NCBI GenBank assembly: GCA_020628545.1
Contig: JAHDEX010000046.1
Coordinates: 1-32,400 of the forward strand
DNA: 32,400 bases
DNA from: Paracoccaceae bacterium
GTDB lineage: Bacteria > Pseudomonadota > Alphaproteobacteria > Rhodobacterales > Rhodobacteraceae
Direction of reading: 5' to 3'
In this document: positions 4,592-28,009 of the stretch, one piece after another
How positions within the stretch are numbered: position 1 is the stretch's first letter
How the letters are laid out: each line of letters opens with the position of its first letter
Notes under the pieces: model-generated
The model's input: only the letters and a program-made list of their open reading frames with translations
Told to the model about the DNA's origin: nothing
Database searches by the model: none
Translations under genes and position numbers: made by a program

Positions 4592-7351
4592 CTATTGCCC
4601 CAACCTATCCAAAAGTGCGGGAACATGGACCTGGTCAGACTTATAGTTACCAGTCAGGACATGCATGATCAGGTTCACGCCAAAACGGAACGCGATCTCG
4701 CGCTGACGCTCACCCGTTTGGCCGCGTCCGACAGGGAACATGCGGTTGCCGAAGTTATCAACGGCCCAGGCGCGTCCCCAGTCGTTGCCGCCAATCACCA
4801 CCGGCGTGACCCCATCGTTGAGATTGCGGAAGGGCACGCCTTCGGCTTGAACGGCACCCGGTGGCGCCGCCTCTACCCAGACATCACGACTATTGTAGCG
4901 CCCGGGAAACTGGTTGAGCAGATAGAATGTCCGCGTCAGAACATGGTCTTCCGGGATCGGTTCAAGGGCGGGAACGTCGAGTGACCGCGCAATAGCTTGG
5001 AGTTGACGCCCCTCGGGAGAGGCAGAGCCGAAACGGGCTGTATCGGCGTCGCGCGTATCAAACAGGATCATGCCGCCGCCCCGCAGATAGCGGTTTAGCT
5101 TTGCATAGGCCTCGCGCGAAGGAAGGGGCTGTTCGGCAGTGATGGGCCAATAAAGAAACGGGAAGAACGCAAGTTCGTCCGTTTCGATATTGACGCTCAT
5201 GGGTGCTGCGGGTTCGATACTTGTGCGCCGGAAAAGTGTCTGGGACAGTCCGCTGAGGCCCGCCAGCGCGATCTCATCGGTTTCGGCGTCTCCTGTCACC
5301 ACATGGGCCAACACAACTTCTGATGTAGCTGCGATGGCAAAGTCGTCATCCTGCGCCATAGCAGGTTGCGCAATCAGCATCAGACCCAAAAGGACGGTTG
5401 CCACGGCATCGGCGCGCGGCCCCCGCAGACGACCGCCAAGCGCCAATGTTGCAATCACGTCGAGGAGAAGCAGGCCAATCGCAAAAGACAGCAGCCAGCC
5501 TTTCAGCGGTGTCTCACGCGTCACCGCCATACCTTCGACCGCAACGCCTGCGGGCCAGACCGCAGGACCGAGGGCGCTGTCAGCAGACATGACATTGACT
5601 GCAAATTGCCGGTCTTCCCCCGCGTAGAGTCCGGGTTGTAGTGCGGGTCCTAACTGCGGGTCGACAAGGCTTTCACCAGCCACGCCGGGTAAGGTCTCCC
5701 CATCCTGCAGGCGACCGGTTGCGTCGAGAACGTCCTGCGGGAGCCACGTTGTTCCGGCAAGATCTTCAGCATCAGGTGTGGCAGTGTTGGTCGAGACCGC
5801 CAGACGTTCCAACATCTGAACAAAAAGCCCGGAAAGTGGCAGCGATGACCATTCGGCATTCGCGGTCACATGGACCAAGACCACCTGACCTTCGCCAGTG
5901 ATCTTGCGTGTCACCAGCGGTGTGCCATCAGCCAGCTGCGCGATAACGCGGTCGGCCAGCGTCGGGTCGGGCTGCGCCATGACCTGAGCGGTCACCACCA
6001 CGTCCTCAGGCACAGCAAGGCCAAAGAACGGGCTGTCATGATTGAATTCTGCAAGCGCCTTGGGTTCGCCCCATGACATGGCCCCTCCCACGCTGCGCCC
6101 GCCGGCACGCAGGCGGACCGGCAGCAGTGGATCGGCTTCAATGCGACCCGCATCGGAGGCCGCAAGGCGCGGGCCCGCAAACCGCAGCAGCATGCCGCCC
6201 TTTTCAACCCATTGCAGGACTGCCTCCGCATCCGTACCGCCAAGTGTTGCGACGTCCGCAAGGATGATCACATCGGGATTGGCGAGCAGGATGTCCTCAA
6301 GCGCGCCATCAATGAGGTCCGCCGTGGGTTCCAGTGCCTGGCGCAAGTAGAAAAGTGGATCGAGAAGGTCGAGGCCCTCCTGATCGCCGACGCCAGAAAT
6401 TAACGCAACTTCGCGCCGTTTCAGCGCATCATCCGTGAGTGCGACTGCAGCCGCAGAGCGGACACCGGGAAGTTCAAACCGGGTGATCCGGTTGCGCAAT
6501 TCCGGCGGCAGAACAAGCTTCGTCTCGGCCACTGCGTCGCCACCGGCAAAAGAAAACGTGGCTGTGGACAACTGCCGTTCCGCGCCGGAAGGATCAAGGC
6601 CGATGGCGTTTACGGGCACCTCAGACGCCTGGCCGACAGGTGTGCGGTTCGCAGACAAAACGATCTCTCCATCGACAAAGCGGGCCGGGCGCAGGCCAAC
6701 TGTTTGGCGCGGCGTCTGGTAAATTGTGACATTGCCGCGCGATTGCAGCGCGGACAGCACATCGTCGCGGCTCTCTCGCGCAAGGCCGTCCGACAGCCAG
6801 CGGGTGTCGAAATTGCCATCAAGTGTGGCGAGCCATTCTGCAAGCACATCTTCCTGGGGTTCCCATGCAGCGGGGGCAAGGTTTGGCAGAGATTGCGCGA
6901 CCGCATCAGCAGGTTGAAACGTAACTCCCTCCGGCGGCAGATCGGTGAGCGTTGTGATTGCCGCGGGGCGCCCCTGTCTGGCAGCCTCACCCAGCATCGC
7001 AGCAATCCGATCCTGCCTTGCAGGCCAGTCTCGGGCATCTGCCCAGGTCCCATCCGCAATAATCAGGAGTGGTCCGTTCCCGTCTGTCTGCGTTTGCGGA
7101 TTGAGGACGGGGCCAGCGAAGCCGAGGATCACGGCTGCGACAGCGATCATCCGCAAAAGCAGCAACCACCATGGCGTGCGGTCTGACTGGCTGTCTTCGT
7201 CTTGTAGGCCCAAAAGCAGTGCAACACCCGGGAACCGGCGCCGGATCGGCGCCGGTGGAACAGCGCGCAGAAGAAGCCATAGGACCGGCAGCGCAATAAG
7301 TGCGAGCAAAAGCCAGGGTGACAGAAAAGCGAGGGGGCCAATGCTAAACAT
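4592..7351 (-). CDS. BatA-N / DUF4159 domain membrane protein
   Basis: This protein has 919 residues. The start MFSIGPLAFLSPWLLLAL is preceded by a GGAGG about ten bases away, so I prefer it over the longer reading. The N-terminus matches the aerotolerance-regulator (BatA) N-terminal domain: two hydrophobic segments flanking RRRFPGVALLLGLQDEDSQSDRTPWW (residues about 5-75). A long central region has weak vWA/GATase-like character. It is followed by two TM segments near 650-700 and a C-terminal DUF4159 domain (LFDTRDAD, RAWAVDNFGNRMFPVG). It is the third gene of the MoxR operon and probably anchors vWA-type domains at the inner membrane. Its ribosome-binding site sits in a small hairpin next to repeat copy B, which may modulate translation. 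Confidence 0.88.
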   Translation of the reverse strand: MFSIGPLAFLSPWLLLALIALPVLWLLLRAVPPAPIRRRFPGVALLLGLQDEDSQSDRTPWWLLLLRMIAVAAVILGFAGPVLNPQTQTDGNGPLLIIADGTWADARDWPARQDRIAAMLGEAARQGRPAAITTLTDLPPEGVTFQPADAVAQSLPNLAPAAWEPQEDVLAEWLATLDGNFDTRWLSDGLARESRDDVLSALQSRGNVTIYQTPRQTVGLRPARFVDGEIVLSANRTPVGQASEVPVNAIGLDPSGAERQLSTATFSFAGGDAVAETKLVLPPELRNRITRFELPGVRSAAAVALTDDALKRREVALISGVGDQEGLDLLDPLFYLRQALEPTADLIDGALEDILLANPDVIILADVATLGGTDAEAVLQWVEKGGMLLRFAGPRLAASDAGRIEADPLLPVRLRAGGRSVGGAMSWGEPKALAEFNHDSPFFGLAVPEDVVVTAQVMAQPDPTLADRVIAQLADGTPLVTRKITGEGQVVLVHVTANAEWSSLPLSGLFVQMLERLAVSTNTATPDAEDLAGTTWLPQDVLDATGRLQDGETLPGVAGESLVDPQLGPALQPGLYAGEDRQFAVNVMSADSALGPAVWPAGVAVEGMAVTRETPLKGWLLSFAIGLLLLDVIATLALGGRLRGPRADAVATVLLGLMLIAQPAMAQDDDFAIAATSEVVLAHVVTGDAETDEIALAGLSGLSQTLFRRTSIEPAAPMSVNIETDELAFFPFLYWPITAEQPLPSREAYAKLNRYLRGGGMILFDTRDADTARFGSASPEGRQLQAIARSLDVPALEPIPEDHVLTRTFYLLNQFPGRYNSRDVWVEAAPPGAVQAEGVPFRNLNDGVTPVVIGGNDWGRAWAVDNFGNRMFPVGRGQTGERQREIAFRFGVNLIMHVLTGNYKSDQVHVPALLDRLGQ

Positions 7352-7360
7352 GTATGTTAG

Positions 7361-7373
7361 CCTCCTGCGGAGG
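7361..7373 (-). promoter_or_regulatory. Hairpin burying the Shine-Dalgarno of the DUF4159 gene
   Basis: On the mRNA strand the bases read CCTCC GCA GGAGG. The GGAGG is the ribosome-binding site ten bases before the DUF4159 start codon, and the CCTCC just upstream is its exact complement. The short loop makes a weak but real potential structure that would hide the SD. It abuts repeat copy B. Confidence 0.4.
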
Positions 7374-7376
7374 CTG

Positions 7377-7424
7377 CTGGGGCTCTGCCCCAGACCCCGA
7401 GGTATTTCGCGCAAGAAGAAGATG
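7377..7424. repeat. Intergenic hairpin repeat, copy B
   Basis: A 7-bp stem, CTGGGGC / GCCCCAG with loop TCT (7377-7393), is followed by ACCCCGAGGTATTTCG and AAGAAGAAGATG. It matches copies A and C in order and sequence. Unlike those it lies inside an operon, between the DUF58 and DUF4159 genes. It could cause partial termination or stabilise an mRNA end there. Confidence 0.65.
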
Positions 7425-7435
7425 AGGTTGCAACA

Positions 7436-8308
7436 TCATGCCTCACGTTCCAATGCGCCGAAGGTCCAGAGGAGCGGCGTGTTAGCAGATGTGCCCGTAT
7501 GATGCGTCTGGAACTGCCACCCAGTCAGGCGCGCCAGATCCGCAAGCTCTGCCTTGCGGGCAGCGAGCCGATCGAGGTAGCGGGCCTTGAGGTCGCCTGC
7601 CTTGAGCGTTTCATGTTCGACGGCACCGGTCATGGATTGAAAGATCGTGCGACCATCAAATGGAAACGCTTCCTCCTGCGGGTCGAGGATTTGGAGCAAC
7701 GCACCACGGACGCCACGGTCTGCCGCGCGCAGCAAGGCGTCCTTGGTGGAGGTGAGGTTGCCGAGAAAGTCGCTGATAAAAAGCGCGCGGGAATGCGGTA
7801 ACATGCCCTGAGCTTCCGGTGCGCCATAGTCGGTCACGTCATCCTGTGACAGCATCGCGGCCATGCGTTCCAATTGTTGTTTGCCGCGTTTCGGTGGCAG
7901 GCGCAGGCCAGTCAGCCCGACACGCTCGCCACCGCGGTTCAAGAGGATTGCCGCCGCAAGGCCGAGCAGCCGCGCGCGATGGCCTTTGCTGGGCAGGCTC
8001 TTGTCCGAGGTGAATTGCATGGAGGCCGCTTGATCGACCCAAAGCAGGACCGATTGGGCAATCTGCCATTCCTTGTCCTGCACAAAATTGCTATCTGATC
8101 TGGCCGAGCGGCGCCAGTCTATGCTGCGCGCGCTATCGCCAGCTTGCGCGGGGCGGTACTGCCAGAAGCTGTCGCCTGTGCCCGCGCGCCTGCGCCCGTG
8201 ATCCCCCAAGAGCACGGTGGACGCCAAATGTTCGGCCTCCGCAAGCAGCGGCGGCAATGGCGCGGCAAGGTCTTCTGCCGCTGAACGAAGGGTCAGCGAC
8301 GTGGTCAT
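7436..8308 (-). CDS. DUF58 domain protein of the MoxR operon
   Basis: This protein has 290 residues. The diagnostic DUF58 segment is GRRRAGTGDSFWQYRPAQAGDSARSIDWRRSARS (about residues 37-70), including the conserved D-x-R-x-I-D-W motif. It is followed by a vWA-like core beginning VLLWVDQAASMQF, where the usual D-x-S-x-S is altered to D-Q-A-A-S. There is no signal peptide or TM segment, so it should be cytoplasmic or peripheral. DUF58 proteins are near-universal partners of MoxR ATPases and are thought to act with them in chaperone-like maturation of complexes. The start overlaps the moxR stop by ATGA, pointing to translational coupling. Confidence 0.92.
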   Translation of the reverse strand: MTTSLTLRSAAEDLAAPLPPLLAEAEHLASTVLLGDHGRRRAGTGDSFWQYRPAQAGDSARSIDWRRSARSDSNFVQDKEWQIAQSVLLWVDQAASMQFTSDKSLPSKGHRARLLGLAAAILLNRGGERVGLTGLRLPPKRGKQQLERMAAMLSQDDVTDYGAPEAQGMLPHSRALFISDFLGNLTSTKDALLRAADRGVRGALLQILDPQEEAFPFDGRTIFQSMTGAVEHETLKAGDLKARYLDRLAARKAELADLARLTGWQFQTHHTGTSANTPLLWTFGALEREA

Positions 8309-16489: not shown

Positions 16490-17125
16490 ATGCGCGCCGC
16501 CCGACTTTTGCAAATCCTGCTGCTGCTCCAAAACCGCGGTCGTCAGACGTCCGGGGCTTTGGCGGCCGAACTTGAAGTGACACCGCGCACCATCCTGCGC
16601 GATGTCGACGCGATGACGGAGGCGGGCCTTCCGATCATCGTCCATCAGGGCAATCGCGGCGGTATCGAACTGGGCTTCAACTATCGCACCCGTCTTACCG
16701 GACTGGCGCAGGATGAAGCAGAGGCTATGGGGCTGATCTTGTCGACCGCAAACCCGATTATTGCGGCCATTGGACTGGATCATGCCGCTACCCGAGCGAA
16801 AGCCAAACTGATTGAAAGCTTCCCCGATAAAGTCCGGCACCGTGTGACAGAGGCGATGGCGCACTTTTCGGTGACCTCCGACCCGCCGGATGATGATCCG
16901 CGCGTGCTGGCGCTCGCGCGGGCTATCAAAGCTCAAACCATTGTCCGTCTGCGGTTTACATCCGCAACCGAGCAAATCGTACATCCGACTGCACTGCACC
17001 TTGAAGGCAAGTCTTGGCGATTTCGGGATGACATCACCGGTGCGTGGATTGATCAGTCTATGTGGGGGCGGATGAACGTCTCCGCGAAGCGATATCAGTC
17101 TGTCACCACCATCGGCCCAAGGTAG
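16490..17125 (+). CDS. YafY-type HTH/WYL-like transcriptional regulator
   Basis: This protein has 211 residues. An N-terminal winged HTH of the DeoR/HTH_11 type is clear: RLLQILLLLQNRGRQTSGALAAELEVTPRTILRDVDAMTEAGLPI. The pattern GNRGGIELGFNYRTRLTGL follows, then a C-terminal WYL-like domain. The eponymous W-Y-L appears as W-R-F in LEGKSWRFRDDITGAWI, so ligand binding may be altered. The ending WGRMNVSAKRY is typical of this short subfamily. It probably represses the divergent SRPBCC operon through the palindrome in the shared promoter. Its last 31 bases overlap the 3' end of the convergent gene. Confidence 0.85.
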   Translation: MRAARLLQILLLLQNRGRQTSGALAAELEVTPRTILRDVDAMTEAGLPIIVHQGNRGGIELGFNYRTRLTGLAQDEAEAMGLILSTANPIIAAIGLDHAATRAKAKLIESFPDKVRHRVTEAMAHFSVTSDPPDDDPRVLALARAIKAQTIVRLRFTSATEQIVHPTALHLEGKSWRFRDDITGAWIDQSMWGRMNVSAKRYQSVTTIGPR

Positions 17126-17565
17126 CGCAGGCATGACGTATCGTTCAGCGCATAGGCCAGACCGCCGAAGGCAGGCTCTGCTATGATTACCAGCGTATTG
17201 GCACCAGCCATTTGATTTTCAACCCGCGCGACATCGCCGGGCAGAAGAAACTCTGCCAATCGCCGACTATAATTGTCGAACCGCACCTCGACGTGACTAG
17301 TGTCGACGTAGGCATTGGGCAGTTCGCGCGCCAGTGCCTCGTTCTCGCCGCGCGTGTGGTAAAAACAATAGTGCCAGGCAGCGGCGCTCGTCTCAAATTC
17401 ACCTGCAAACAAGTGAATGCGCAGCTTGCCAGGGGCGGTGCGCGGGGGCAGGTTCAGCTCCACCCGCCGATACTGGCGGGCCAAGACATCCTGAACCGAG
17501 ACGGCAGCAGGCCCTGCGGTCTGGCCCGCAAACCGCGCGGGCAAAAGACGTTTAACGAACGACAT
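17095..17565 (-). CDS. Uncharacterised protein, convergent with the YafY-type gene
   Basis: This 156-residue protein begins MSFVKRLLPARFAGQTAGPAA and has no convincing signal peptide or TM segment. Recognisable stretches are VLARQYRRVELNLPPRTAPGKLRIHLFAGEF, AAAWHYCFYHTRGENEALARELPNAYVDTSHVEVRFDNYSRRLAEFL and ANTLVIIAEPAFGGLAYALND. I do not recognise the family. The coding character (codon-position GC) and even composition make it a credible gene, and it fills the gap before the L,D-transpeptidase. Its 3' end overlaps the regulator gene tail to tail by 31 bases, so each transcript would be antisense to the other there. Confidence 0.7.
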   Translation of the reverse strand: MSFVKRLLPARFAGQTAGPAAVSVQDVLARQYRRVELNLPPRTAPGKLRIHLFAGEFETSAAAWHYCFYHTRGENEALARELPNAYVDTSHVEVRFDNYSRRLAEFLLPGDVARVENQMAGANTLVIIAEPAFGGLAYALNDTSCLRYLGPMVVTD

Positions 17566-17845: not shown

Positions 17846-18643
17846 ATGCCCGATTCTTCTGTTTATACACGCCGCAGCTTTGCGGCGATGATGCTTGCCA
17901 CAACCGCGGCCTGCGCAGGCCGCAGCGTTCCGGAATCATCACCCGAAAAACCGGCTTTGCCTGTGATCAACTTCGCCGAAGGTTATGGGCCAATCCAAGA
18001 TGGCGAGTATTATCTGCCGGGTATCCCGGACAGGTTCACCCAAGGCATCAATCGCCGCATGTTCGGTGAGTATCTGGGAGAGCAGGACGCCGGCACAATC
18101 GACGTCGATCCATACGCCAAGTTTTTGTACAACGTGAAAGCGGACGGATCTGCCGTGCGTTACCCCGTTGGCGTTGGTCGGCAGGGGCGTTCGATCAACG
18201 GCGGCGCAACCATTAAACTCAAGCGCGAATGGCCCGGCTGGACACCCACGCAAAACATGCTGCGCACGGAACCAGAGGTCTATGAGCCGTTCCGCGACGG
18301 CGTCCCCGGTGGTCTGTCTAGTCCGCTCGGCGCACGCGCGCTGTATCTCTATCGCGGCAGCCGTGACACCTACTACCGGATCCATGGCACCAACGATCTG
18401 GAATCTATTGGAAACTCCGGTTCAGCGGGCTGTATCCGCATGTTCAACCAAGACATTATTCACCTGTTTGAAGAGGTGGATGTACCGACCAAAGTCCACA
18501 TCCGGACCCGCGAAGAATCGCTGCGCGTTGATCCCGAAAACTATGAGCGTGGCGTTGAATTGCCGCCAAAAATCCTTTCCCCGGAAGAGGTTTTCGGGAC
18601 AGCTGACGCGTCGCTCGACGATTTGGATGTGTTCATCGAATAA
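17846..18643 (+). CDS. L,D-transpeptidase (YkuD domain), probable Tat-exported lipoprotein
   Basis: This protein has 265 residues. The N-terminus YTRRSFAAMMLATTAACAG has a twin-arginine motif and a Cys at residue 23 that could be lipidated. The YkuD catalytic domain follows: VDPYAKFLYNV, YPVGVGRQG, SPLGARALYLY, then YRIHGTNDLESIGNSGSAGCIRMFNQDI with catalytic H180 and C196 plus R198. These enzymes form 3-3 cross-links in peptidoglycan or attach proteins to it. The C-terminal tail (about residues 215-265) is acidic and variable. An AAGG sequence precedes the ATG. It is transcribed alone, between a palindrome and a hairpin terminator. Confidence 0.92.
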   Translation: MPDSSVYTRRSFAAMMLATTAACAGRSVPESSPEKPALPVINFAEGYGPIQDGEYYLPGIPDRFTQGINRRMFGEYLGEQDAGTIDVDPYAKFLYNVKADGSAVRYPVGVGRQGRSINGGATIKLKREWPGWTPTQNMLRTEPEVYEPFRDGVPGGLSSPLGARALYLYRGSRDTYYRIHGTNDLESIGNSGSAGCIRMFNQDIIHLFEEVDVPTKVHIRTREESLRVDPENYERGVELPPKILSPEEVFGTADASLDDLDVFIE

Positions 18644-18764: not shown

Positions 18765-19841
18765 ATGGCTGATTTTGACGCGCAAATTCGTGAATCACAG
18801 GCACAGGTGGCCGAAGCACAGGCCAAGATGGCTGACCTCACAAGCCGGATCGAAGTGGCACGCCAGAAAATGGCAGCCGGGACCGATATCTCCGTAGATA
18901 TCGAAAATGCGTCGCTTGATGAGGTACACGCCCATACCGAACTGATGAACGCCAACATCGCAGAGCTCATCATGGGCCTCGACGATGTGACGTCTGCGTT
19001 CTCCAAAGACTTCGATGAGATGCGCAACAAGACGGGGATGGAGTCCTTTATTGGTTTCTTCTCAAAGGCAAAGTCCGAAAGCATGCGGCAGGAGCGGATG
19101 CGCACGGCCTCCATCGACGACAAGCTGCAAGACCTAATCGGCAAATCCGACGTGATCACCAAACTTCTGCAAAACCAGTTGGCGGAACTGAACACGCAGA
19201 AAGAGAGCGTGGAAACAAACCTGTCCGGCACGCTGGAAGAGCGGGAAACCGTGGTAGGCGAGCTGGAAACTGCGCGAGCAGACATCCTCAAGATGGACCC
19301 GGACATTATTGCCCTGGAAAACAAAATTTCCGTTGAGCAAGACGCTGCGGCCCGCACGAAGCTGGAAAGCGAGCTGGCGGAGTTGAATACCAAGTACAAT
19401 GAACTTGTGCAGCACGAGCAGGTTTTGGTCGCGAAGTCCCAGACACTGGAACGCTACATCGAGAAAGGCAAAACCTGGATCGACTCCCTGCAGAACCAGG
19501 CCGCGACCCAGATGGTGCTGATCAACAAGTTGGAGACGGACACCAAGCAGCGCGTTGTATTATATGACGCCCTGTCAAAGTCGCTAAAGACCGCGCAGCA
19601 GCAGGACGTCGCCCACCAGATTAATGAGATCGGCGTGAAGACGGACCAAGAGGCGCAGACCGCGATGGCGGCCATCGGTGCAGCCACGAACAACCGCATG
19701 GCCGATATGCTGGAAGCCCACGAAGACCACATGGTATTCGCGCGTGAGGTGCTGGAGCAGAAGGCAAAAGCGGATGAGCGGTTTGTGCGGCGTTTCCAGA
19801 AGATCGTGGAGAAGCACGATAGCAATCAGTATGGGGCGTGA
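18765..19841 (+). CDS. Coiled-coil protein, first gene of the uncharacterised AAA+ operon
   Basis: From ATG-GCT (MADFDAQIRESQAQVAEAQA) this protein has 358 residues, with GAGAGG about ten bases upstream. It is almost entirely helical and heptad-rich, with long coiled coils near residues 1-35, 125-260 and 270-350. A short non-helical insert, MRNKTGMESFIGFFSKAKSE, lies near residue 90. There is no TM segment or signal peptide. The overall look is that of a cytoplasmic filament-forming or scaffolding protein. The C-terminal half loosely recalls the TelA toxic-anion-resistance family, but I see no firm match. It opens a run of eleven co-directional genes that includes a AAA+ ATPase, so it may be the substrate or adaptor of that ATPase. 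Confidence 0.82.
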   Translation: MADFDAQIRESQAQVAEAQAKMADLTSRIEVARQKMAAGTDISVDIENASLDEVHAHTELMNANIAELIMGLDDVTSAFSKDFDEMRNKTGMESFIGFFSKAKSESMRQERMRTASIDDKLQDLIGKSDVITKLLQNQLAELNTQKESVETNLSGTLEERETVVGELETARADILKMDPDIIALENKISVEQDAAARTKLESELAELNTKYNELVQHEQVLVAKSQTLERYIEKGKTWIDSLQNQAATQMVLINKLETDTKQRVVLYDALSKSLKTAQQQDVAHQINEIGVKTDQEAQTAMAAIGAATNNRMADMLEAHEDHMVFAREVLEQKAKADERFVRRFQKIVEKHDSNQYGA

Positions 19842-19908
19842 TGGTGAAGCCGTGGGCGCAACCTCTATCTTTGCTTAGTCGCAAATTTCTGAGCAATGCT
19901 AGGCTCCT

Positions 19909-20259
19909 ATGATCAAGTCCCAGATAAGAGACCAAACAGAAAGCGTCGGGTCGAAAGGGCTGAGACTTCTGATCATGGGAGTGCTTTTCCTTTTTTTGTT
20001 AATTGGACTTTTCGCAGTGTATTATTCGTCGACCGTGGACAGCGGCTGGCTTTTCGCCACAGGTGTTGGGATATCGATGGTTTCCGGTATTTCGGGCATC
20101 CTCTTTGTAGGGGTGAGTATTGTTAATGGGGCACCTCCGGTTTTGCTCAATCCAAAGGACAATTGGCATGAGTCGGGTAAGGGCCACATAACCAACACCG
20201 ATTTCTCTGGAGGATTTGGTGATTTTGGAGATGGCGGCGGAGGCGGAGGCGGCGACTGA
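19909..20259 (+). CDS. Two-TM protein with poly-glycine C-terminal tail
   Basis: This protein has 116 residues. Two TM helices are evident (about 19-39 and 47-72), followed by a soluble tail ending TDFSGGFGDFGDGG and five more Gly plus a final Asp. Similar Gly-rich acidic tails occur in some TPM-domain and other envelope proteins, but no such domain is present here. Its TGA overlaps the ATG of the next gene by one base (TGATG), showing translational coupling. The tail encodes a GGCGGAGGCGGAGGC tract, which could be prone to length change. Function is unknown; it is probably an inner-membrane component of the operon's machinery. Confidence 0.75.
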   Translation: MIKSQIRDQTESVGSKGLRLLIMGVLFLFLLIGLFAVYYSSTVDSGWLFATGVGISMVSGISGILFVGVSIVNGAPPVLLNPKDNWHESGKGHITNTDFSGGFGDFGDGGGGGGGD

Positions 20260-21380
20260 TGCCCAAGACTGACCTCTCCCAAGACCACTTCAAACTCGAA
20301 GACACGCGCGTCACCCGGCGCTACTTTGGCAAGTTCGAGCGGATCACCAACCACCTCAACAAGGTCGCAGCGACGATGGAGGCGGAGCGGCGGTTGTCGC
20401 GCGAGGATATTCAGGCTGTTGCGCGCTACCTTTATGGCCTCAATATCACCTTCCGCTCGCTGGCGCATAAATACCATTTCTCCGGCCGGTTCAGTCATGC
20501 GGGGCAGTTGACGTTTGACCGGGTGGAAAGCGGCTTTCCGGTCTATCAAGAGCTGCTGGAAATGGCCAATGACGCGCTGCAAGCGGAGCGGCATCTGGCG
20601 TCGATGCCGTCGGACGACGAGTTAAAAGACGAAATGGTCCGCACCATCGTCGGCGAACAGCAAATCCCGACAAAGCTGCAATACGCGTTGTCGCAGCGGC
20701 TCTATTACGAAGAACTGGTCAAAGGGCATCAGTTTTGGGCGCGCAACGACCCACAAGCAGTCTGGCTGGGCAACAACCGCGATCGGCGGACCTTTCAGAT
20801 CCACTGGGCGGTCTACGATAGTCAAGTGAACCTGCCGACGATCTACCTCATGGAAGTCGATGATACAGGCCGCACCGGACTGCCGAAGGACGAACGCCGC
20901 TGGCCAGAAGTACAGGCGCATTTGATGGCGCAGGCTGTCGGCGGGCTGAAGCTGCTGACGATTGCCAAAGGTTTTGACGAGGATTTCGACGATCTGCACC
21001 CAACGCGCCTGCGCCGCTTCCACATCGGGCCAATGTACAGTCACGCCTTCACCCGCCAGACCGGGCCACTGCGCGAGGTGCTGGAGGCCGCCAACAGCCC
21101 GGTTGGAGAGGATTGGGCCTTGGTCTGGACAGAAGAGGAGTTGATCGCGGAACGGGCGGAACGGGTGAAATCGGGCTGGTTCGGCACGGTCGAACGCCAG
21201 ATTTTTGCGCTCGATCCATTTGGCGGGCAGGGGGCGGATACAGGGGCGACACGCATGGAACGCGCGCTGATCATGCCCGAACGCCCGTATCAAGCGCTGG
21301 CCGAACGCAACCCGCCAGGCTTCCGAGATGTGCGCAAGTTTGTGGTCAGCGATAACGGCCGGGTGCTGAGTTATCGGTAA
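20259..21380 (+). CDS. Uncharacterised 373-aa soluble protein of the AAA+ operon
   Basis: I do not recognise the family. The protein is soluble. A basic, helical N-terminal third (TRRYFGKFERITNHLNKVAATMEAERRLSREDIQAVARYLYGL) is followed by a mixed alpha/beta region (FQIHWAVYDSQVNLPTIYLMEVDDTGRTGLP, HLMAQAVGGLKLLTIAKGFD). A C-terminal part is rich in charged residues (LVWTEEELIAERAERVKSGWFGTVERQIF). No Cys pair, Walker motif or obvious catalytic signature is seen. It is coupled to the poly-Gly membrane protein by a one-base overlap and is followed 35 bases later by the AAA+ ATPase gene. It is a reasonable candidate for an adaptor or regulator of that ATPase. Confidence 0.82.
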   Translation: MPKTDLSQDHFKLEDTRVTRRYFGKFERITNHLNKVAATMEAERRLSREDIQAVARYLYGLNITFRSLAHKYHFSGRFSHAGQLTFDRVESGFPVYQELLEMANDALQAERHLASMPSDDELKDEMVRTIVGEQQIPTKLQYALSQRLYYEELVKGHQFWARNDPQAVWLGNNRDRRTFQIHWAVYDSQVNLPTIYLMEVDDTGRTGLPKDERRWPEVQAHLMAQAVGGLKLLTIAKGFDEDFDDLHPTRLRRFHIGPMYSHAFTRQTGPLREVLEAANSPVGEDWALVWTEEELIAERAERVKSGWFGTVERQIFALDPFGGQGADTGATRMERALIMPERPYQALAERNPPGFRDVRKFVVSDNGRVLSYR

Positions 21381-21415
21381 GTGCGTGGGCGCTGCGCGCG
21401 GCAAAGGAGAAAGAC

Positions 21416-23356
21416 ATGAGCCAAACACACGATCAGATGGAATTGCGCGAAGAAGACGTGCGCGCCCATTACGCGGCCGCGCTGGATCTGATCGACGGGT
21501 TTGACCACGCCCCCCGGATCGGCACCGCAAAAGAAGCGAGCGCCCCGGCGGAGCGGTCCCCGGGTGTGGGCGGCACCAGGCGGCGATTTCGCTCGACGAC
21601 GCCCGGCCTCGCGGCGCGGCGGGTGACGCGGACCGAAGGGATCCAATTGACCACGCGGGTGGAAGCGGTCGAAGGCGGCGACGGGCTGACCTCACCCTTG
21701 CAAGCGACTGTACTGCAATCCCTGCGCCGCGCCATTGCGATTGCCTTGGCGGTGGCCGATCAATATGCGGACCGCACAGCGCTCAAAGACCTCAAACGCG
21801 CAAACCTCGAAGGCAGTTTGGCCGACGGTCAAAAGGCGGAGTTCACCGAGCTACTGACCGCCGAAGCGCTGATCACACTCTACGTCTTTGGGTCGGCGAC
21901 CGCATTCCTTCTGGCCTCCCACGCGACCGAGGAAACGGTCGAAGTGGGCGAGGTGGAAGAGGTGCTGACAGACAATGGCCAGCTCGCTCTGCACGGCGCA
22001 CTTTGGGAATTGGATCAAGACATTGCCGTCCACGCTTCATCTGAAGCAAAGCTGGTGGAGACGGTCCTCGCCTTCGCCGAAGCCTTGATGGACAAGGTCG
22101 CCGGCCGCGCCAGCACCGCGGGCCGCTTGGAACCGTTTGTCAGCGCGTCTTGGCGGGTGGAAGCCGACGACTTCACGGTTGATGGTTTTAGCCCTGCGTC
22201 GAAGGCCAAGGGGTCAACCCTCACCATGACCTTCAAAAAACCCAATGAGGTCGTGGGCAACCATATTGCTAAGTATCAGGCTATGAAGCTCTCCAAGATG
22301 CTGATGGCCTATGACTTTGACCGGCGGTTGAACCCTTTCGCCGAACTCGGCGGTTTCATTTTTACGTTCATGGGGGACGGGAAGCCCGGCACCGGGAAAA
22401 CCACACTGATCCAGATGATGGCGGGTCTGATCAACGACTATTGTGGCGTGGTGGGCTACCCGTTCCGCTATCAGAACTTGAGCACCGACAACATCGACAG
22501 CTATCAGGGCAAATCGGGCCAGAACGCAAAGGCGTTTATTAACAACGTGCTGGACCCCGGTGTGATTGGGTTTGGCACGATTGACGATATCGACCAACTT
22601 GCAGGTAAGCGGGGCGACCGGCAGTCCTCTGCTGGGCAGTTGGAAATCACTGCGGTGCTGATGGAAAGCTTCGCGGGCGCCAATACGGTTGTGCGCGGGA
22701 ATTGCACTTTTGGAATGTTCTCCAACTATCCGGAAAACGTCGATGATGCGCTGCGCCAACGTGCGGGTGCCCGGTTCCTCGTGGACGGACCGCAGACGCG
22801 CGAGGACTATATCGACATCCTCTACCTCTTGATGGGCAAGAACCACGATATCCCCGTGGGGGAGCATGAAGTCTTCAGCGCGCAGGAGATCAAAAAAGCC
22901 GTCGCGGCGTCCTTCGAAAGCCACTCCAAACCGCACGAAGAAGGCCTGCTAAAGGTCTTTGACCGCGTGCATTCCCAGATTGGAGAGTTGGATACGATTG
23001 CCAAAATGGGGACCTACCTGAAGGGCATTCAGGAGGCAGACGAACGCTTCACCGGCCGCGCCATCAAGAACATCACCGACGCGGTGAAGGTCCGCGCGAT
23101 GGACTTTGAATTGCCGGACGAGTGGATGGAAAACCCGGAGCTGTTCCTGTTCAAGGATTACGACGCGAAGAAGGCCATGATCGCGGACCTGCGTGTGCCG
23201 ATCACGACCGAGATGGTGATCCAGGAGATCAACCGCTATGCGGACAGTGAGTTCCGCTATGCCGATAAGTCGGACGAAGTGGCGATTGAAGCGATGGTGC
23301 GTGACTTCGGGCGGCAGGAAGAGGCGAAAAAGCGGTATTTGGAGAGCAAAGGGTGA
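21416..23356 (+). CDS. AAA+ ATPase with atypical Walker B
   Basis: This protein has 646 residues with a strong AAAGGAG SD. Residues 1-75 include an Arg-rich, probably disordered stretch (TRRRFRSTTPGLAARRVTRTEG). A helical domain follows to about 230. The AAA+ core has Walker A G-K-P-G-T-G-K-T (322-329), Walker B VIGFGTIDDID (383-393) with D390-D391 instead of the usual D-E, sensor-1-like GMFSNYPEN, and Arg-finger candidates R447, R449 and R453 in ALRQRAGARF. A helical C-terminal lid region continues to the end. There is no TM segment. It is the only enzyme I can identify in this operon, so it is presumably the motor. Its stop overlaps the next gene's GTG by four bases. Confidence 0.88.
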   Translation: MSQTHDQMELREEDVRAHYAAALDLIDGFDHAPRIGTAKEASAPAERSPGVGGTRRRFRSTTPGLAARRVTRTEGIQLTTRVEAVEGGDGLTSPLQATVLQSLRRAIAIALAVADQYADRTALKDLKRANLEGSLADGQKAEFTELLTAEALITLYVFGSATAFLLASHATEETVEVGEVEEVLTDNGQLALHGALWELDQDIAVHASSEAKLVETVLAFAEALMDKVAGRASTAGRLEPFVSASWRVEADDFTVDGFSPASKAKGSTLTMTFKKPNEVVGNHIAKYQAMKLSKMLMAYDFDRRLNPFAELGGFIFTFMGDGKPGTGKTTLIQMMAGLINDYCGVVGYPFRYQNLSTDNIDSYQGKSGQNAKAFINNVLDPGVIGFGTIDDIDQLAGKRGDRQSSAGQLEITAVLMESFAGANTVVRGNCTFGMFSNYPENVDDALRQRAGARFLVDGPQTREDYIDILYLLMGKNHDIPVGEHEVFSAQEIKKAVAASFESHSKPHEEGLLKVFDRVHSQIGELDTIAKMGTYLKGIQEADERFTGRAIKNITDAVKVRAMDFELPDEWMENPELFLFKDYDAKKAMIADLRVPITTEMVIQEINRYADSEFRYADKSDEVAIEAMVRDFGRQEEAKKRYLESKG

Positions 23357-23970
23357 CAGTCACTCGGCAAGCCTACGGGGCGCTGGTCGCCCTACTGGTT
23401 CTGGCGTTTTCCGTGGCCGCGATGCTGCAGGATTCCGGGCTTCTTTCGCGGATACCGCCCGTGTCGCCCGACGTGCCCACGCCTACCCCGGATGTCGCTG
23501 AAGGGGCAGAATACCCTCTATACCTCAGCGCTTTCACAGCTTGGGCCGCGCTGCTTTTGCTTCTTCCGGTCTACGCAACAGTTTGGCGTAGTGATCAACA
23601 AGGGCGCGCGATTTGGTTGTCCTACTGGACCGTCTCTTGGATCGCGTATGTCGTCCATCTGCTTGTCGCCATGTTTCTGTTTTTTCAGGGCGATTTCGCG
23701 TGGATGACATCGAGCAGTCGCGTGAGTGCTTTCTGGCCCGGCATGCTGATTGCGGTCTGGTGGCCCATCGATATCCTTCTCGCGAGGCGACAGGCCACTT
23801 GGGTCATCGTGCAGCGGCTACTGATTCATGTGCTGGTGCTGGTGTTGTTTGTTGGCGGGTCTGCGGTAAAGGGCGAAATTGTGACGGTCCAAGTGATCGG
23901 CTGGGTCTTGGCAATTTCTGCTTTGGTTGCCGCGCTCATTTTTAGCCGCAGGAGACTGCGACATGGGTAA
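23353..23970 (+). CDS. Six-TM membrane protein of the AAA+ operon
   Basis: This protein has 205 residues from a GTG start that overlaps the ATPase stop (GTGA). About six TM segments are visible (8-24, 58-76, 88-111, 126-143, 150-170 and 180-197). A Pro-rich loop after the first (RIPPVSPDVPTPTPD) is probably periplasmic. Conserved-looking aromatic and Trp residues (YWTVSWIAYVVHLLVAMF, FWPGMLIAVWWPID) lie in the membrane. The C-terminus is basic (SRRRLRHG), so it is probably cytoplasmic. I do not recognise the family. The tight coupling to the ATPase gene suggests it is a membrane partner made in step with it. Confidence 0.82.
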   Translation: MTVTRQAYGALVALLVLAFSVAAMLQDSGLLSRIPPVSPDVPTPTPDVAEGAEYPLYLSAFTAWAALLLLLPVYATVWRSDQQGRAIWLSYWTVSWIAYVVHLLVAMFLFFQGDFAWMTSSSRVSAFWPGMLIAVWWPIDILLARRQATWVIVQRLLIHVLVLVLFVGGSAVKGEIVTVQVIGWVLAISALVAALIFSRRRLRHG

Positions 23971-24316
23971 TCCGCTTTCTGACTTCGGCCTCGGCCTCAT
24001 TATTCCTACCGCCTTTCTTGCCGCGATTGCATGGCTTGTCCCGATCTGGCTTCGTTGGCGGATGCCGGAAGGGGTGCGGCCCCTGATGATGCTGTCCTTG
24101 CTCTCGACGATCATTGTCCTCAGCCTCGGCGCGCTGATGTTTCTTGGCCTTTACCTGCTTCAAGGGGCAGAACTCGCCGCACTCACGAGCGCAGGCATCG
24201 GCCCGGCCATCTGGTACTTCGTCCGCCTGTCGATCTCTGCCGGGCTGATCTGGGCGCCGATTATGGTTCTTTCTATCGCAGGTCTCCCCAAGACTTGGGT
24301 GCATGAGACGTGGTAA
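23963..24316 (+). CDS. Three-TM membrane protein of the AAA+ operon
   Basis: I take the ATG preceded by GGAG (MGNPLSDFGLGLIIPTAFLA), giving 117 residues and an 8-base overlap with the previous gene; a longer reading lacks an SD. Three TM helices are clear (about 9-31, 40-66 and 85-107). A basic loop, RWRMPEGVRP, between the first two points to a cytoplasmic side. No family is recognised. Together with the preceding six-TM protein it probably forms a membrane subcomplex. Confidence 0.78.
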   Translation: MGNPLSDFGLGLIIPTAFLAAIAWLVPIWLRWRMPEGVRPLMMLSLLSTIIVLSLGALMFLGLYLLQGAELAALTSAGIGPAIWYFVRLSISAGLIWAPIMVLSIAGLPKTWVHETW

Positions 24317-24325
24317 GGTGTTGAT

Positions 24326-25711
24326 ATGCATAGACTGATCGAAAAAGGCCTGATGTTTGGCAACCTGATCCGGGTGGACAGCCCGGTACTGGTGGAACGC
24401 TACAAGCGCGCGTTGCAACATCTGACGGGCAAGACGTTTGAGCTTGCCGATTTCCACATTGATATCTCAGGCTATTCGCCCGAGGTCGGGGATGCGCTGG
24501 GTGACGATCAGTACTTGAACCATGCGGGCGTGAACCGGCAGTTCATCCTGCTCACGACTGAGCAAAAAACTGCGCCGCTATTGAACGCGCAATTCTCAAC
24601 CGCACGCGGGATCCTCAAGCAGTTCATTACCGACAATGAACCGCAGTTGTTTGCCCTGACCGCGCAAGATGCGGTTGCGGGGGAGTTGGTGAACTCCGTC
24701 TATGATGCCTCCACCCTCGCCAAGCTCTTCGACATCCGCAAGATCACGATTGAGGCGGATACGACCAAAGGCACGGTCGCGACGGCCACGCGGTTGGGGG
24801 AAATGATCAATCAGTTCAAGACCGAGAAGGACGCTTGGTTTGACGATGTGCTGATCGCCAAGATGATCAGCCTGTCGAAGGAAACCGGAGACGTGACCCG
24901 CAACCCCGTGTCTTTGCGGCAGATGGAATTCGCGCAGGACAATTTCTGGACGGCGCATTTCGGCGGCATGTACTTGTTTCGCGATGTGGAGCATCCGGCG
25001 GCGATTTTGCGTGGGGCTCGTGACGCTTATGGCCAACTGCCAATTCAATACGCTTTTGACTTTGGCGACCGTCGCGCCATCGCAAAGTTCCTGTCGCTGA
25101 ATGATTTGATAGAGCCCATCGTGAAAGCAAAGGGCCCTGATGCGGCGGCGATCCTGCAGCAAAAGATGGACTTCATGGTGGTCGAAGTAGCGGCCGTGAT
25201 GGGCGAAGACCTGACCGGAGCCAGCCGCCGCGATCTGCGCATGTTGGGGCGGCGCTATGCCAAACTGTTGCCGGAGGCATGGCAGGGGCTGGCGGCCTTG
25301 GTGCGCTGGGCGGAAGAGGGCGGGTCGTGGCCGCGCATCACCTCCGACCATCCGTCATACTTCTATACGCTCCGCGCCAAGAAGCACAAAGATGCGGACC
25401 TCATCAACATGCTGCTGTCAGAGCTTTCACCACTCGACATCCGCCAGCTTTTCATCTGTCACAAGGAAGCGTTCTATGCGCTCTATGCCACGTGGCCTGA
25501 TGAGAAGCGGGAGTATGTGGCTGATTTTCTTGAACGCGAATATCAAGTCGACAAGGCGGGTACGCGCGAGACGCTCTTTGGGCATGAAGATGCCATGGAA
25601 GAGCCACAGGCCGCACCGGTGCGCGGCCCTTGGTCAAGCGGACACGGATATCGTATAGAGGCGGATATGATTGATCGGGTCGGCCCCTGGGGCGGTCTGA
25701 GGAGGAGGTAG
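24326..25711 (+). CDS. Uncharacterised 461-aa protein (possible DUF6638) of the AAA+ operon
   Basis: This soluble, mostly helical protein begins MHRLIEKGLMFGNLIRVDSPVLVERYKRALQHLTGKTFELADFHIDISGYSPEVGD. From memory such proteins are filed as DUF6638; I could not check this. The middle contains MEFAQDNFWTAHFGGMYLFRDVEHPAAIL, and the C-terminal part LLSELSPLDIRQLFICHKEAFYALYATWPDEKREYVADFLEREYQ. The last 40 residues are Gly/Pro/Arg-rich and look disordered. No catalytic motif is apparent. It follows the small membrane genes by 9 bases and precedes another small membrane gene by 2 bases, so it is firmly part of the operon. Confidence 0.83.
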   Translation: MHRLIEKGLMFGNLIRVDSPVLVERYKRALQHLTGKTFELADFHIDISGYSPEVGDALGDDQYLNHAGVNRQFILLTTEQKTAPLLNAQFSTARGILKQFITDNEPQLFALTAQDAVAGELVNSVYDASTLAKLFDIRKITIEADTTKGTVATATRLGEMINQFKTEKDAWFDDVLIAKMISLSKETGDVTRNPVSLRQMEFAQDNFWTAHFGGMYLFRDVEHPAAILRGARDAYGQLPIQYAFDFGDRRAIAKFLSLNDLIEPIVKAKGPDAAAILQQKMDFMVVEVAAVMGEDLTGASRRDLRMLGRRYAKLLPEAWQGLAALVRWAEEGGSWPRITSDHPSYFYTLRAKKHKDADLINMLLSELSPLDIRQLFICHKEAFYALYATWPDEKREYVADFLEREYQVDKAGTRETLFGHEDAMEEPQAAPVRGPWSSGHGYRIEADMIDRVGPWGGLRRR

Positions 25712-25713
25712 AC

Positions 25714-25980
25714 ATGGGATTGGTACGTCTTGTGGTGTTTGGCTTCGTGGCCTTAGGCATCATCTATTTATCGATCTCGATCTACTCCCGCTCTGTCCGG
25801 CGCGAGAAGCTTGAGAAGGCTTATGACGAAAACCCCGTTGCGGGGATGACGCGCGACGCTTACGTGCAACAAGGGGTCGAGGCCTACAACAAGAGCTTTC
25901 GCCCGAAACTGATTGGATTGGTTTTTGTGATCCCGCCGCTTGTCGTTGGGGCAATCATTTACATCACCAACGCGAACTGA
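25714..25980 (+). CDS. Small two-TM membrane protein of the AAA+ operon
   Basis: This protein has 88 residues. TM helices lie at about 4-24 and 65-85, with a roughly 40-residue charged segment between them (RREKLEKAYDENPVAGMTRDAYVQQGVEAYNKSFRPK). The positive charges in the loop place it in the cytoplasm, with both termini outside. GGAGG lies just before the ATG as a strong SD. No family is recognised. Its size and position suggest an accessory subunit. Confidence 0.8.
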   Translation: MGLVRLVVFGFVALGIIYLSISIYSRSVRREKLEKAYDENPVAGMTRDAYVQQGVEAYNKSFRPKLIGLVFVIPPLVVGAIIYITNAN

Positions 25981-25990
25981 GGATAGTTTC

Positions 25991-26689
25991 ATGCGCCGTT
26001 TCCGTATTGCCTTTCGTGTGATCCTTTTCCTGCTTGTCGGCAGCTTCTTCCACTATGTTTTGCCGCAGAACGATATCGTGCAGATCACGCAAACGGACAC
26101 GCGACGCACCGACTTTGGCGGCTTTAACCGCTGGTTCTATGCGCAAGCCGATGCGGGAAGCGCCGAGATGGCGAACCGCGATGTCCTCTATATTTACGCG
26201 GACCGGAAAAAGACCTTCCTGTTTGGTCTTGTGAAGCGCGATGCGATGGGGGTGATGGTCTACCGGAATGAGGACACAGGTTGGATTTGGCCGCCCTACT
26301 TCAAATTCGATAGCTCCAACCTTCAGGCGGAGGCTGCAAGTCTTGCCCGCCGGAACGAGAATGACGAGGGGGGGAACTGGGCGAAGGTCACCCACTACGG
26401 CTGGCGTATCCCATTCCTGTCGATTTTCCCCAATGCCGTGAATGTCGAACCGATTGAGGGGCCGGATGTGCGGATCATCCCGTGGTTCAACATCTTCTTT
26501 TTTGTCTTCTTAATCGTCGCCTTCTTCTTCGTAAGAGCGATGTGGATGCAATTGCGCGAACGCTCGCTGGATCCGCTGGTGGATAGTGCCGAGCACCGGA
26601 TCGATGAGGTGCAGGCCGGTGTCGCCGAGAAGCGGGGCCGTTTGCGCAAATGGCTCAATACTTGGCGGTCGAAAGACGACCAGTTGTGA
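25991..26689 (+). CDS. DUF1523 family membrane protein
   Basis: This protein has 232 residues. It matches the DUF1523 pattern: an N-terminal TM (about 8-24) followed by FHYVLPQNDIVQITQTDTRRTD, then a periplasmic domain with DVLYIYADRKKTFLFGLVKRDAMGVMVYRNEDTGWIWPPYFKFD and WAKVTHYGWRIPFLSIFPNAVNV. A second TM (about 163-186) leads to a charged helical cytoplasmic tail (IDEVQAGVAEKRGRLRKWL). DUF1523 is common in Rhodobacterales and has no assigned function. It continues the AAA+ operon, with an SD (GAGGA) overlapping the preceding stop, and overlaps the downstream propeller gene. Confidence 0.88.
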   Translation: MRRFRIAFRVILFLLVGSFFHYVLPQNDIVQITQTDTRRTDFGGFNRWFYAQADAGSAEMANRDVLYIYADRKKTFLFGLVKRDAMGVMVYRNEDTGWIWPPYFKFDSSNLQAEAASLARRNENDEGGNWAKVTHYGWRIPFLSIFPNAVNVEPIEGPDVRIIPWFNIFFFVFLIVAFFFVRAMWMQLRERSLDPLVDSAEHRIDEVQAGVAEKRGRLRKWLNTWRSKDDQL

Positions 26690-27582
26690 GGCCAGATTGG
26701 TCGCGGCGGCTTGATCCGCGTCAGGTCAGCCAGCTTGTCATCGCCAGCCGCGATGGCGCTGAAAAGGCTGTCATCTACGAAACTGGCGATCTGATAGAAG
26801 CGCCGAACTGGTCGCTCGACGGCAAGTGGCTGATCTTCAACGGGGATGGACGGATCTGGCGCATATCCGTTGATGGGAGCATCGGACCCGAACGGATCAA
26901 CACCGCACCAATTGAAGCTTGCAACAACGATCATGTCTTGGCCCCGGATGGCGCACATATCTTCCTCTCGGCCCGGGACGGCCACCTCTACATCTGCCCG
27001 TTAAAAGGCGGGACCCCGCGTCGCGTTTCAAACGATCAGGGGGCTGTCGGCGCGTTTCGGTACTATCTGCACGGTGTCTCACCGGATGGCGATGTGCTCG
27101 CCTATGTCGGACTGCAGGGCGAAGGCGCCCACCGCAAGACATGGATCGGCACGATCCCGGTGGCGGATGGCCCCGATCAGATCCTGACTGACGGCGCATG
27201 CCCTGTCGACGGACCAGAATTTAGTGCGGACGGCGCTTGGATCTACTTCAACTCCGAAGCCGCAGCGACGCAGCCGGGTCATGCGCAGATATTTCGGATG
27301 CGTCCTGATGGTCACGAGTTGACACAATTGACCTTTGACGACCGGGTGAACTGGTTCCCGCATGCGGCACCTGATGGGACGCTCTTTAGCTACATTTCAT
27401 ACCCGCCCGGAACACTGGGGCATCCAGCCGACAAGGACGTCGAAGTGCGCACGATGCATCCGGATGGCGGCGACATCCGGACAATTGATCGCTTCAATGG
27501 CGGCCAAGGCACTATCAACGTAAACTCGTGGTCCCCCGACAGTCGGCATTTCGCGTATGTGAGGTACCCGATACATAACTGA
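26686..27582 (+). CDS. TolB/WD40-like beta-propeller protein without signal peptide
   Basis: This protein has 298 residues from a GTG overlapping the DUF1523 stop (GTGA). An ATG 36 bases upstream is the alternative; neither start has a clear SD. Repeated TolB-type PD40 blades are obvious: EAPNWSLDGKWLIFNGDGRIWRI, VLAPDGAHIFLSARDGHLYI, GVSPDGDVLAYVGLQG, GPEFSADGAWIYFNSE, WFPHAAPDGTLFSYISYPPG and VNSWSPDSRHFAYVRY, giving about six blades. Most such proteins are periplasmic, but neither start gives a signal peptide, so this one should be cytoplasmic. It probably serves as a protein-interaction platform at the end of the AAA+ operon. A weak TTGCG/CGCAA hairpin follows the stop. Confidence 0.85.
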   Translation: MRPDWSRRLDPRQVSQLVIASRDGAEKAVIYETGDLIEAPNWSLDGKWLIFNGDGRIWRISVDGSIGPERINTAPIEACNNDHVLAPDGAHIFLSARDGHLYICPLKGGTPRRVSNDQGAVGAFRYYLHGVSPDGDVLAYVGLQGEGAHRKTWIGTIPVADGPDQILTDGACPVDGPEFSADGAWIYFNSEAAATQPGHAQIFRMRPDGHELTQLTFDDRVNWFPHAAPDGTLFSYISYPPGTLGHPADKDVEVRTMHPDGGDIRTIDRFNGGQGTINVNSWSPDSRHFAYVRYPIHN

Positions 27583-27661
27583 CATCATCATCTTGCGCCT
27601 TCGCAACAAATTAGGACATTTGAGCGTATTAAAGTGACGTGTGACGGTAAGGTTCGGCGCA

Positions 27662-28009
27662 ATGCAGACATTCGGTAGCCAACAGATTGGCGTGCAAGCA
27701 GGTGACCTGGTCCTATTCTCGGATTTTGAGGACGATGGCGACATGTGGAAAGGGGAGGGTGCGCGCATGGTGCGACGTGCCGTCACCTTTGATGAGCCGT
27801 TTTTACGGCCGCCGATTGTCACCGTTCACATGACGATGATCGATATGTCGAATGACGCGTTTATCCGCGCGGACATTCAGGCTGAGGCGATTACAAAAAC
27901 CGGTTTCGACATTGTTTTCCGTACTTGGGGCGATAGCCGCGTGGCGCGCATCCGCGCAGGCTGGCAGGCCATTGGGGCAGCCGTGGACGAGGACGGTTGG
28001 GAGTTGTGA
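27662..28009 (+). CDS. H-type lectin domain protein
   Basis: I take the ATG with AAGG upstream (MQTFGSQQIGVQAGDLVLFSDF), giving 115 residues; a GTG seven codons earlier is possible. The sequence RAVTFDEPFLRPPIVTVHMTMIDMSNDAFIRADIQAEAITKTGFDIVFRTWGDSRVARIRAGWQAIG fits the H-type lectin domain (discoidin/snail agglutinin C-terminal type), a small six-stranded sandwich that trimerises and binds GalNAc-type sugars. In bacteria these domains occur alone, often in Rhodobacterales, with unknown ligands. There is no signal peptide. It lies 79 bases after the propeller gene and is either the last gene of the operon or a separate unit. Confidence 0.82.
   Translation: MQTFGSQQIGVQAGDLVLFSDFEDDGDMWKGEGARMVRRAVTFDEPFLRPPIVTVHMTMIDMSNDAFIRADIQAEAITKTGFDIVFRTWGDSRVARIRAGWQAIGAAVDEDGWEL

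Follow-up and report, generated by a model that had tools for sequence, protein, structure and literature searches.

The window analysed here is a 32,400-nucleotide stretch of contig JAHDEX010000046.1 from a Paracoccaceae bacterium (assembly GCA_020628545.1), which carries an array of eleven open reading frames (ORFs), all on the + strand, at positions 18765..28009. The conserved unit in this array is four genes rather than eleven; they encode a coiled-coil protein (CC), the protein S373, an AAA+ ATPase (AAA) and a DUF6638 protein, and they are inherited as a block. We propose that their products form a four-protein AAA+ remodelling machine with a motor acting on the C-terminal part of CC, a reading to which we assign a probability of about 0.45. 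Of 149 sampled family members, 63 encode this AAA+ ATPase with its three dedicated partners, which also occur in Rhizobiaceae including Sinorhizobium meliloti, and in Vibrio. The core genes and the elements discussed below are located in the window as follows.

18765..19841, + strand: CC, coiled-coil protein of 358 amino acids; core gene 1, without a Pfam family above cut-off
19581..19616, + strand: SLKTAQQQDVAH block of CC, residues 273-284; kept with the ATPase module, lost in four orphan CC
19812..19838, + strand: C-terminal tail of CC, KHDSNQYGA; its retention and loss follow those of the SLKTAQQQDVAH block
20259..21380, + strand: S373; core gene 2, with a helical N-terminal part and a beta-rich C-terminal part
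21416..23356, + strand: AAA+ ATPase of 646 amino acids; core gene 3, with an N-terminal part of ~280 residues and one AAA domain
22373..22405, + strand: Walker A GDGKPGTGKTT, ATPase residues 320-330; alignment motif
22499..22516, + strand: pore-loop-like SYQGKS, ATPase residues 362-367; alignment motif
22577..22594, + strand: end of Walker B, TIDDID, ATPase residues 388-393; alignment motif
24326..25711, + strand: DUF6638 protein (PF20343); core gene 4

Gene order was examined in 93 loci, comprising the window, 12 loci (L018-L029) and 80 named loci (L030-L109). The named loci were the best 80 of 561 confirmed ATPase-alignment matches, with titles giving Rhodobacteraceae or unclassified Alphaproteobacteria. 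Loci L018-L109 were chosen by AAA or DUF6638 similarity, are mostly from Rhodobacteraceae, and contain duplicate entries for at least two contigs, of 552610 and 909426 bases. The order CC-S373-AAA-DUF6638 and the common strand were kept in 89 of the 93 loci (76 of the 80 named). Three of the four exceptions (L036, L088 and L094) are truncated where their contigs end, and the fourth, L086, carries the ATPase alone. When the eleven window proteins were searched by tblastn in the 80 named and 12 further loci, AAA was found in 80, S373 in 78, DUF6638 in 78 and CC in 77 of the named loci. Other genes that flank the array in the window were scarce in these 92 loci: a YkuD gene was present in 34 and the gene at 17095-17565 in 8, and a WYL-like regulator, Prs, DsbA and an aldolase-like gene in none. 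Since the order holds in 89 of 93 loci while these flanking genes are scarce there, the linkage of the core exceeds chance. A preliminary description of the array had treated its genes as one assembly, a view that would fail if they were rarely found together; in the neighbourhood comparison the four core genes do stay together, but the eleven as a set do not.

As the loci had been chosen by similarity, presence was also tested on whole genomes. In a family sample of 149 genomes, one per genus, AAA was detected in 63 (threshold E ≤ 1e-10) and CC in 65. All 63 AAA genomes had CC (agreement 147/149). CC alone was found in two: G485, a 76% complete genome with a weak partial match, and G562, which is 83% complete and has its match close to the start of a contig. 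Among 385 genomes of the class, AAA and S373 occurred in an identical set of seven (agreement 385/385). Of 60 near relatives, 32 had DUF6638, each of them a member of the own genus group (32/36); in the phylum it was found in 26 of 398 genomes, of which 14 belong to the own family, 10 to family f174, one to f179 and one lies outside the class; in the S373 search, the f174 proteins were closest to Mesorhizobium. Ten of these 26 DUF6638 loci (4 other families plus the own family) were fetched, and all ten had CC-S373-AAA-DUF6638 in order; of the other 16 places, five had already been seen (the window, L018, L019, L020 and L023) and 11 were left out. Pairwise distances of the four core proteins were correlated at 0.90-0.97 across 98 loci and at 0.77-0.91 within Rhodobacteraceae.

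The block also occurs on large replicons. In a plasmid collection it was present in 10 records, from Sinorhizobium, Shinella, Rhizobium leguminosarum and Vibrio, and the four core genes keep their order in S. meliloti, in Vibrio and in the R. leguminosarum TP16 record (L150). The annotation of V. parahaemolyticus NZ_CP062152 gives two hypothetical proteins, an ATP-binding protein and a DUF6638 family protein, with an mfd gene coming next; identities to the window are 40% (CC), 28% (S373), 40% (AAA) and 25% (DUF6638). On an 882-kb Vibrio plasmid, the mfd (transcription-repair coupling factor) gene lies directly 3' of the core (L147:12271-15732). A genome outside the class (G604, locus L118) encodes core proteins 57-71% identical to those of the window, which we interpret as the block having been transferred in its entirety.

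The ATPase is of the classical AAA+ type. The AAA domain matched PF00004 with an E-value of 2.3e-11 (44.7 bits against a cut-off of 21.2). Across 103 aligned ATPase rows, the Walker A pattern GDG.PGTGKT was present in 101, and the sensor-1 SN and LRQR motifs in 101 or 102. The pore-loop-like YQG and the Walker B end T[IV]DD[IV]D, the latter also found in Vibrio, were each present in 102, the remaining row being gapped. The Walker B motif of classical AAA proteins ends in DE, of which the E is catalytic. This catalytic E is missing from the ATPase, with D in its place in all 102 ungapped rows, and the D may still support catalysis. By sequence, the nearest solved chains to the AAA part were weak matches: an i-AAA protease (2.4e-5), fidgetin-like 1 (4.5e-4) and Vps4 (2.5e-3). 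The nearest named relatives of the window ATPase are from Yoonia. DUF6638 matched PF20343 with an E-value of 3e-229 (761.7 bits against a cut-off of 27). Structural models of S373 (predicted local distance difference test, pLDDT, 89.2; predicted template modelling score, pTM, 0.88) and DUF6638 (pLDDT 79.2, pTM 0.75) gave no convincing match to any solved fold; the T-fold, as in T-fold enzymes, was considered as a candidate topology for the C-terminal part of S373.

The part of CC that may meet the motor is indicated by loci in which CC stands without it. With a diverged CC as the query, CC relatives were found in 35 of 59 Rhizobiaceae genomes. S373 adjoined CC in 30 of them, DUF2333 stood there instead in three (G597, G936 and G800), and two (G930 and G971) are truncated by the end of a contig. 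No S373, AAA or DUF6638 was found in the 15-17 kb around the CC-DUF2333 pairs of G597, G936 and G800. A fourth orphan CC-DUF2333 pair, on plasmid record L149 of R. leguminosarum BIHB 1148, sits between thymidine kinase and formate-tetrahydrofolate ligase genes, where S. meliloti has the full block. Two C-terminal elements, an SL[KR]TA.QQ..AH block and an H...Y tail, were both present in 129 of 129 CC proteins beside the module and in 0 of 4 orphans. These 129 proteins, 126 of them distinct by the last 250 residues, came from 89 four-gene loci, 14 loci with AAA in view (longer stretches) and 26 with S373 only. Because both elements are lost jointly with the motor module, the C-terminal part of CC is the best candidate for a binding or threading site; the loss series points to individual residues, and the block and tail should be the binding place of the motor. 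Divergence alone does not explain this pattern, since the Vibrio CC keeps both elements at 37% identity to its Rhizobiaceae counterpart (residues 41-276), whereas the two closest orphans, at 33-34%, have neither.

In the mechanism that we propose, the products would be organised in two modules: a scaffold, consisting of CC and, in most lineages, an adjoining membrane protein (DUF1523 or DUF2333), and a motor, S373-AAA-DUF6638. The scaffold occurs alone as CC-DUF2333, and the motor was seen only with CC, except in L086. CC would polymerise through its coiled coils, docked at or near the inner membrane, and S373 and/or DUF6638 would serve as adaptors. The AAA ring would directly contact the block and tail in the C-terminal part of CC, and its YQG pore loops would thread and pull the protein, so that CC assemblies would be dismantled, or their partners swapped, in an ATP-dependent cycle. 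Such a scheme would resemble Vps4 acting on polymers. If true, it would represent a new substrate-adaptor arrangement for bacterial AAA+ remodelling, possibly at the membrane. Since the core is inherited as a block and a membrane neighbour is usual, an ATP-driven assembly located near the membrane and scaffolded by a coiled coil, much as first suggested, is still the best reading. The membrane neighbours allow a guess at its physiological role, namely upkeep of the envelope or membrane.

Several observations weigh against this proposal. In 26 of the 129 CC loci, S373 but not AAA is in view. The orphans number four, and L149 and G597 are close relatives (88%), which leaves about three orphan lineages. 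Orphan CC proteins have diverged along their whole length (20-34% identity versus 79-86% for intact Rhizobiaceae CC), and the loss of the elements may therefore be part of a general decay. The motif patterns of CC were written after the sequences had been seen. An AAA relative was found in 0 of 3 orphan genomes (1e-10), in a search without a positive control and with the L149 strain covered by its plasmid record only. The ATPase gene at L086:10001-11935 (77% identical) has no CC, S373 or DUF6638 within 10 kb on each side. Finally, neither DUF1523 nor DUF2333 is in view next to the core in Vibrio or in R. leguminosarum TP16, so the membrane partner is not universal. L086 itself is a contig of a metagenome-assembled genome with a pheT-like gene downstream of the ATPase, and is either a true orphan or a binning or assembly artefact.

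It is possible, although we consider it less likely, that CC is a structural tether, which would hold AAA-S373-DUF6638 at a membrane protein while the ATPase remodels another client, such as an envelope complex or a cytoplasmic enzyme; the block and tail would then be docking sites. Loss of the CC elements together with the module fits docking as well as threading, and the survival of CC and DUF2333 in the absence of the motor is what would be expected of a stand-alone scaffold. However, no client gene is commonly linked to the core, the occupants of the gaps between core genes vary, and the Vibrio locus consists of the four core genes only.

A more specific form of our proposal, which we regard as doubtful, is a bacterial machine like ESCRT-III/Vps4 but built of unrelated or unrecognisably diverged parts. 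A dedicated ring of classical AAA type, with D for E in Walker B, would thread the block and tail of a membrane-tethered CC polymer, S373 and DUF6638 would be adaptors of new fold, and the Rhizobiaceae orphans would be descendants that kept polymer and anchor after losing the motor. A classical AAA domain, a pore-loop aromatic and arginine-finger motifs are shared with Vps4/ESCRT-III and the classical AAA remodelers katanin, spastin, fidgetin and Msp1. Vps4 works on the tails of ESCRT-III. CC is likewise a helical partner, and its C-terminal end is retained only alongside the ATPase module, an indirect sign that the ATPase may engage this end. In contrast to Vps4, the ATPase has D for E in Walker B, and the core includes two further proteins without known relatives. 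The ESCRT-III family Snf7 (PF03357) was absent among the Pfam matches at E ≤ 1 for all eight CC members searched, and no MIT domain was found in the window ATPase, for which Pfam at E ≤ 1 lists AAA and ABC_tran only. As these domain tests, run at the sequence level, fail, membership in ESCRT-III/Vps4 is not claimed.

An envelope-stress system equivalent to Psp, with CC as a PspA-like effector and the ATPase as its recycler, is improbable. Like Psp, the array brings a coiled-coil protein and an AAA+ ATPase together with membrane proteins in a single operon, and PspA neighbourhoods with AAA+ ATPases are described in surveys, according to the excerpted text of PMC11237479. However, none of the eight CC members matched PF04012 at E ≤ 1, a profile comparison with one PspA gave 1% probability, and Pfam identified no PspB, PspC or PspF among the window genes. 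A true PspA gene does lie near the core in L119, but this is context at one locus. It was located at minus-strand coordinates 7105-7815 (PF04012, 2.3e-25), downstream of the core and past a TetR regulator on the opposite strand, and is followed by a YiaAB-domain gene.

We give even less weight to an anti-phage or other conflict system with the ATPase as a regulator, although defence had been among the roles considered initially. The patchy presence of AAA (63/149 family genomes) and DUF6638 (26/398 phylum genomes) would suit such a system, and so would the apparent transfer of the complete block to another class (57-71% identity). However, a search of ten window proteins, the lectin left out, against PADLOC-DB 2.0.0 returned no specific family. 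The weak matches were three coiled-coil families for CC (4e-4 to 1.2e-3) and TRIP13 for the AAA domain (1.8e-4), and the other eight proteins had none. TRIP13/Pch2, the best PADLOC match of the ATPase, shares generic AAA sequence only, and no core protein matched a HORMA family. No match of the ATPase turned up among 50,697 phage records; the plasmid records that carry it, 10 in number, were all larger than 0.88 Mb and typed as non-mobilizable, and the core contains no toxin or nuclease. The suggested defence role is not supported by these searches. Least probable is that four functionally loose genes travel together mainly through co-transfer, for which G604 and the Vibrio megaplasmids provide evidence of horizontal transfer but against which stand the near-perfect joint presence, the loss as a module and the joint loss of the CC elements.

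The other seven genes of the array, with TM denoting transmembrane, are the following.

19909..20259, + strand: Gly-tailed two-TM protein; optional, in the CC-S373 slot
23353..23970, + strand: TM205 membrane protein; optional
23963..24316, + strand: TM117 membrane protein; optional
25714..25980, + strand: TM88 small membrane protein; after DUF6638 in most Rhodobacteraceae loci
25991..26689, + strand: DUF1523 membrane protein; in Rhodobacteraceae, usually the last gene of the unit
26650..27582, + strand: TolB-like PD40 propeller; without the conservation of the core
27641..28009, + strand: H-type lectin domain protein (PF09458); local neighbour

The eleven genes are indeed co-directional and tightly packed, as first described. 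The Gly-tailed/S373 junction is TGATG and the ATPase/TM205 junction is GTGA, TM205 and TM117 overlap by 8 bases and DUF1523 and the propeller by 40, and the remaining junctions are gaps of 67, 35, 9, 2, 10 and 58 bases. Named Pfam families above cut-off were limited to AAA, DUF6638, DUF1523 (PF07509, E 1.6e-59), the PD40 propeller (E 1.8e-12) and the lectin (E 1.9e-20); CC, Gly-tailed, S373, TM205, TM117 and TM88 had no match above cut-off in the scan of window proteins.

The idea that all eleven genes constitute one system did not hold, with the propeller and the lectin each in 0 of the 80 named loci and the Gly-tailed, TM205 and TM117 genes optional. By tblastn, TM88 and DUF1523 were each present in 76 of these loci, TM117 in 25 and TM205 in 2. 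The CC-S373 and AAA-DUF6638 gaps (6-787 and 39-2386 bases, respectively) act as slots, occupied in the window by Gly-tailed, TM205 and TM117. Among the 89 complete loci, defined by all four core genes and including the window, a Gly-tailed ORF filled the CC-S373 slot in four, window included, and in 63 the AAA-DUF6638 gap held an ORF predicted to have two or more TM segments. The AAA-DUF6638 gap of S. meliloti Ak57 contains an endonuclease-domain gene and an ISRm16 transposase (L148:11079-12824), and DUF2333 comes after the block; a similar small ORF (MRG...LWYELRGRRLNG) occupies that place in L120 and L124.

On the 3' side, 87 of the complete loci carry DUF1523 and 85 carry TM88; TM88 was not found in L119 or L022. 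DUF1523 occurred in 12 of the 385 class genomes, the seven with AAA and five others, and thus has a life outside the unit; in a profile search of these five extra stretches, four showed DUF1523 alone and L130 nothing. All five of the longer stretches from Rhizobiaceae (L185-L188 and L190) have DUF2333 (PF10095) after DUF6638, as do L120 and L124. The propeller, without an evident signal peptide, and the lectin follow DUF1523 (26650-28009) only in the window genome among the loci examined. The propeller had been cast as an interaction part of the assembly; it is probably a local neighbour, possibly on the same transcript as the core unit.

TelA was also considered for CC, which is likewise a soluble helical protein of similar size, and was rejected: no PF05816 match was obtained, and the profile comparison gave 0.2% probability against 0.1% for reversed-sequence controls. 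The window genome has a separate TelA locus (G000:C77:33819-34800), with PF05816 in two overlapping pieces, one of them matching across a TGA. In 15 listed relatives of the same genus, TelA gave one match each without stops, and the window copy is either a broken gene or an assembly error.

By the locus-tag numbering (choXWV = SMc02737-39), SMc02733 might be the ATPase of the unit in S. meliloti, a tentative assignment for which a literature search on the tags found nothing. No paper naming DUF6638 was found in the literature search. In PMC3687685, the DNA fragments listed for a ChvI binding screen include one from within S. meliloti SMc02733.

Just upstream of CC, the window carries a YkuD L,D-transpeptidase gene (PF03734) at 17846-18643. 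The YkuD gene was present in 27 of the 80 named loci among its 34 occurrences in the 92 related loci, 24 of the 27 being on the same strand.

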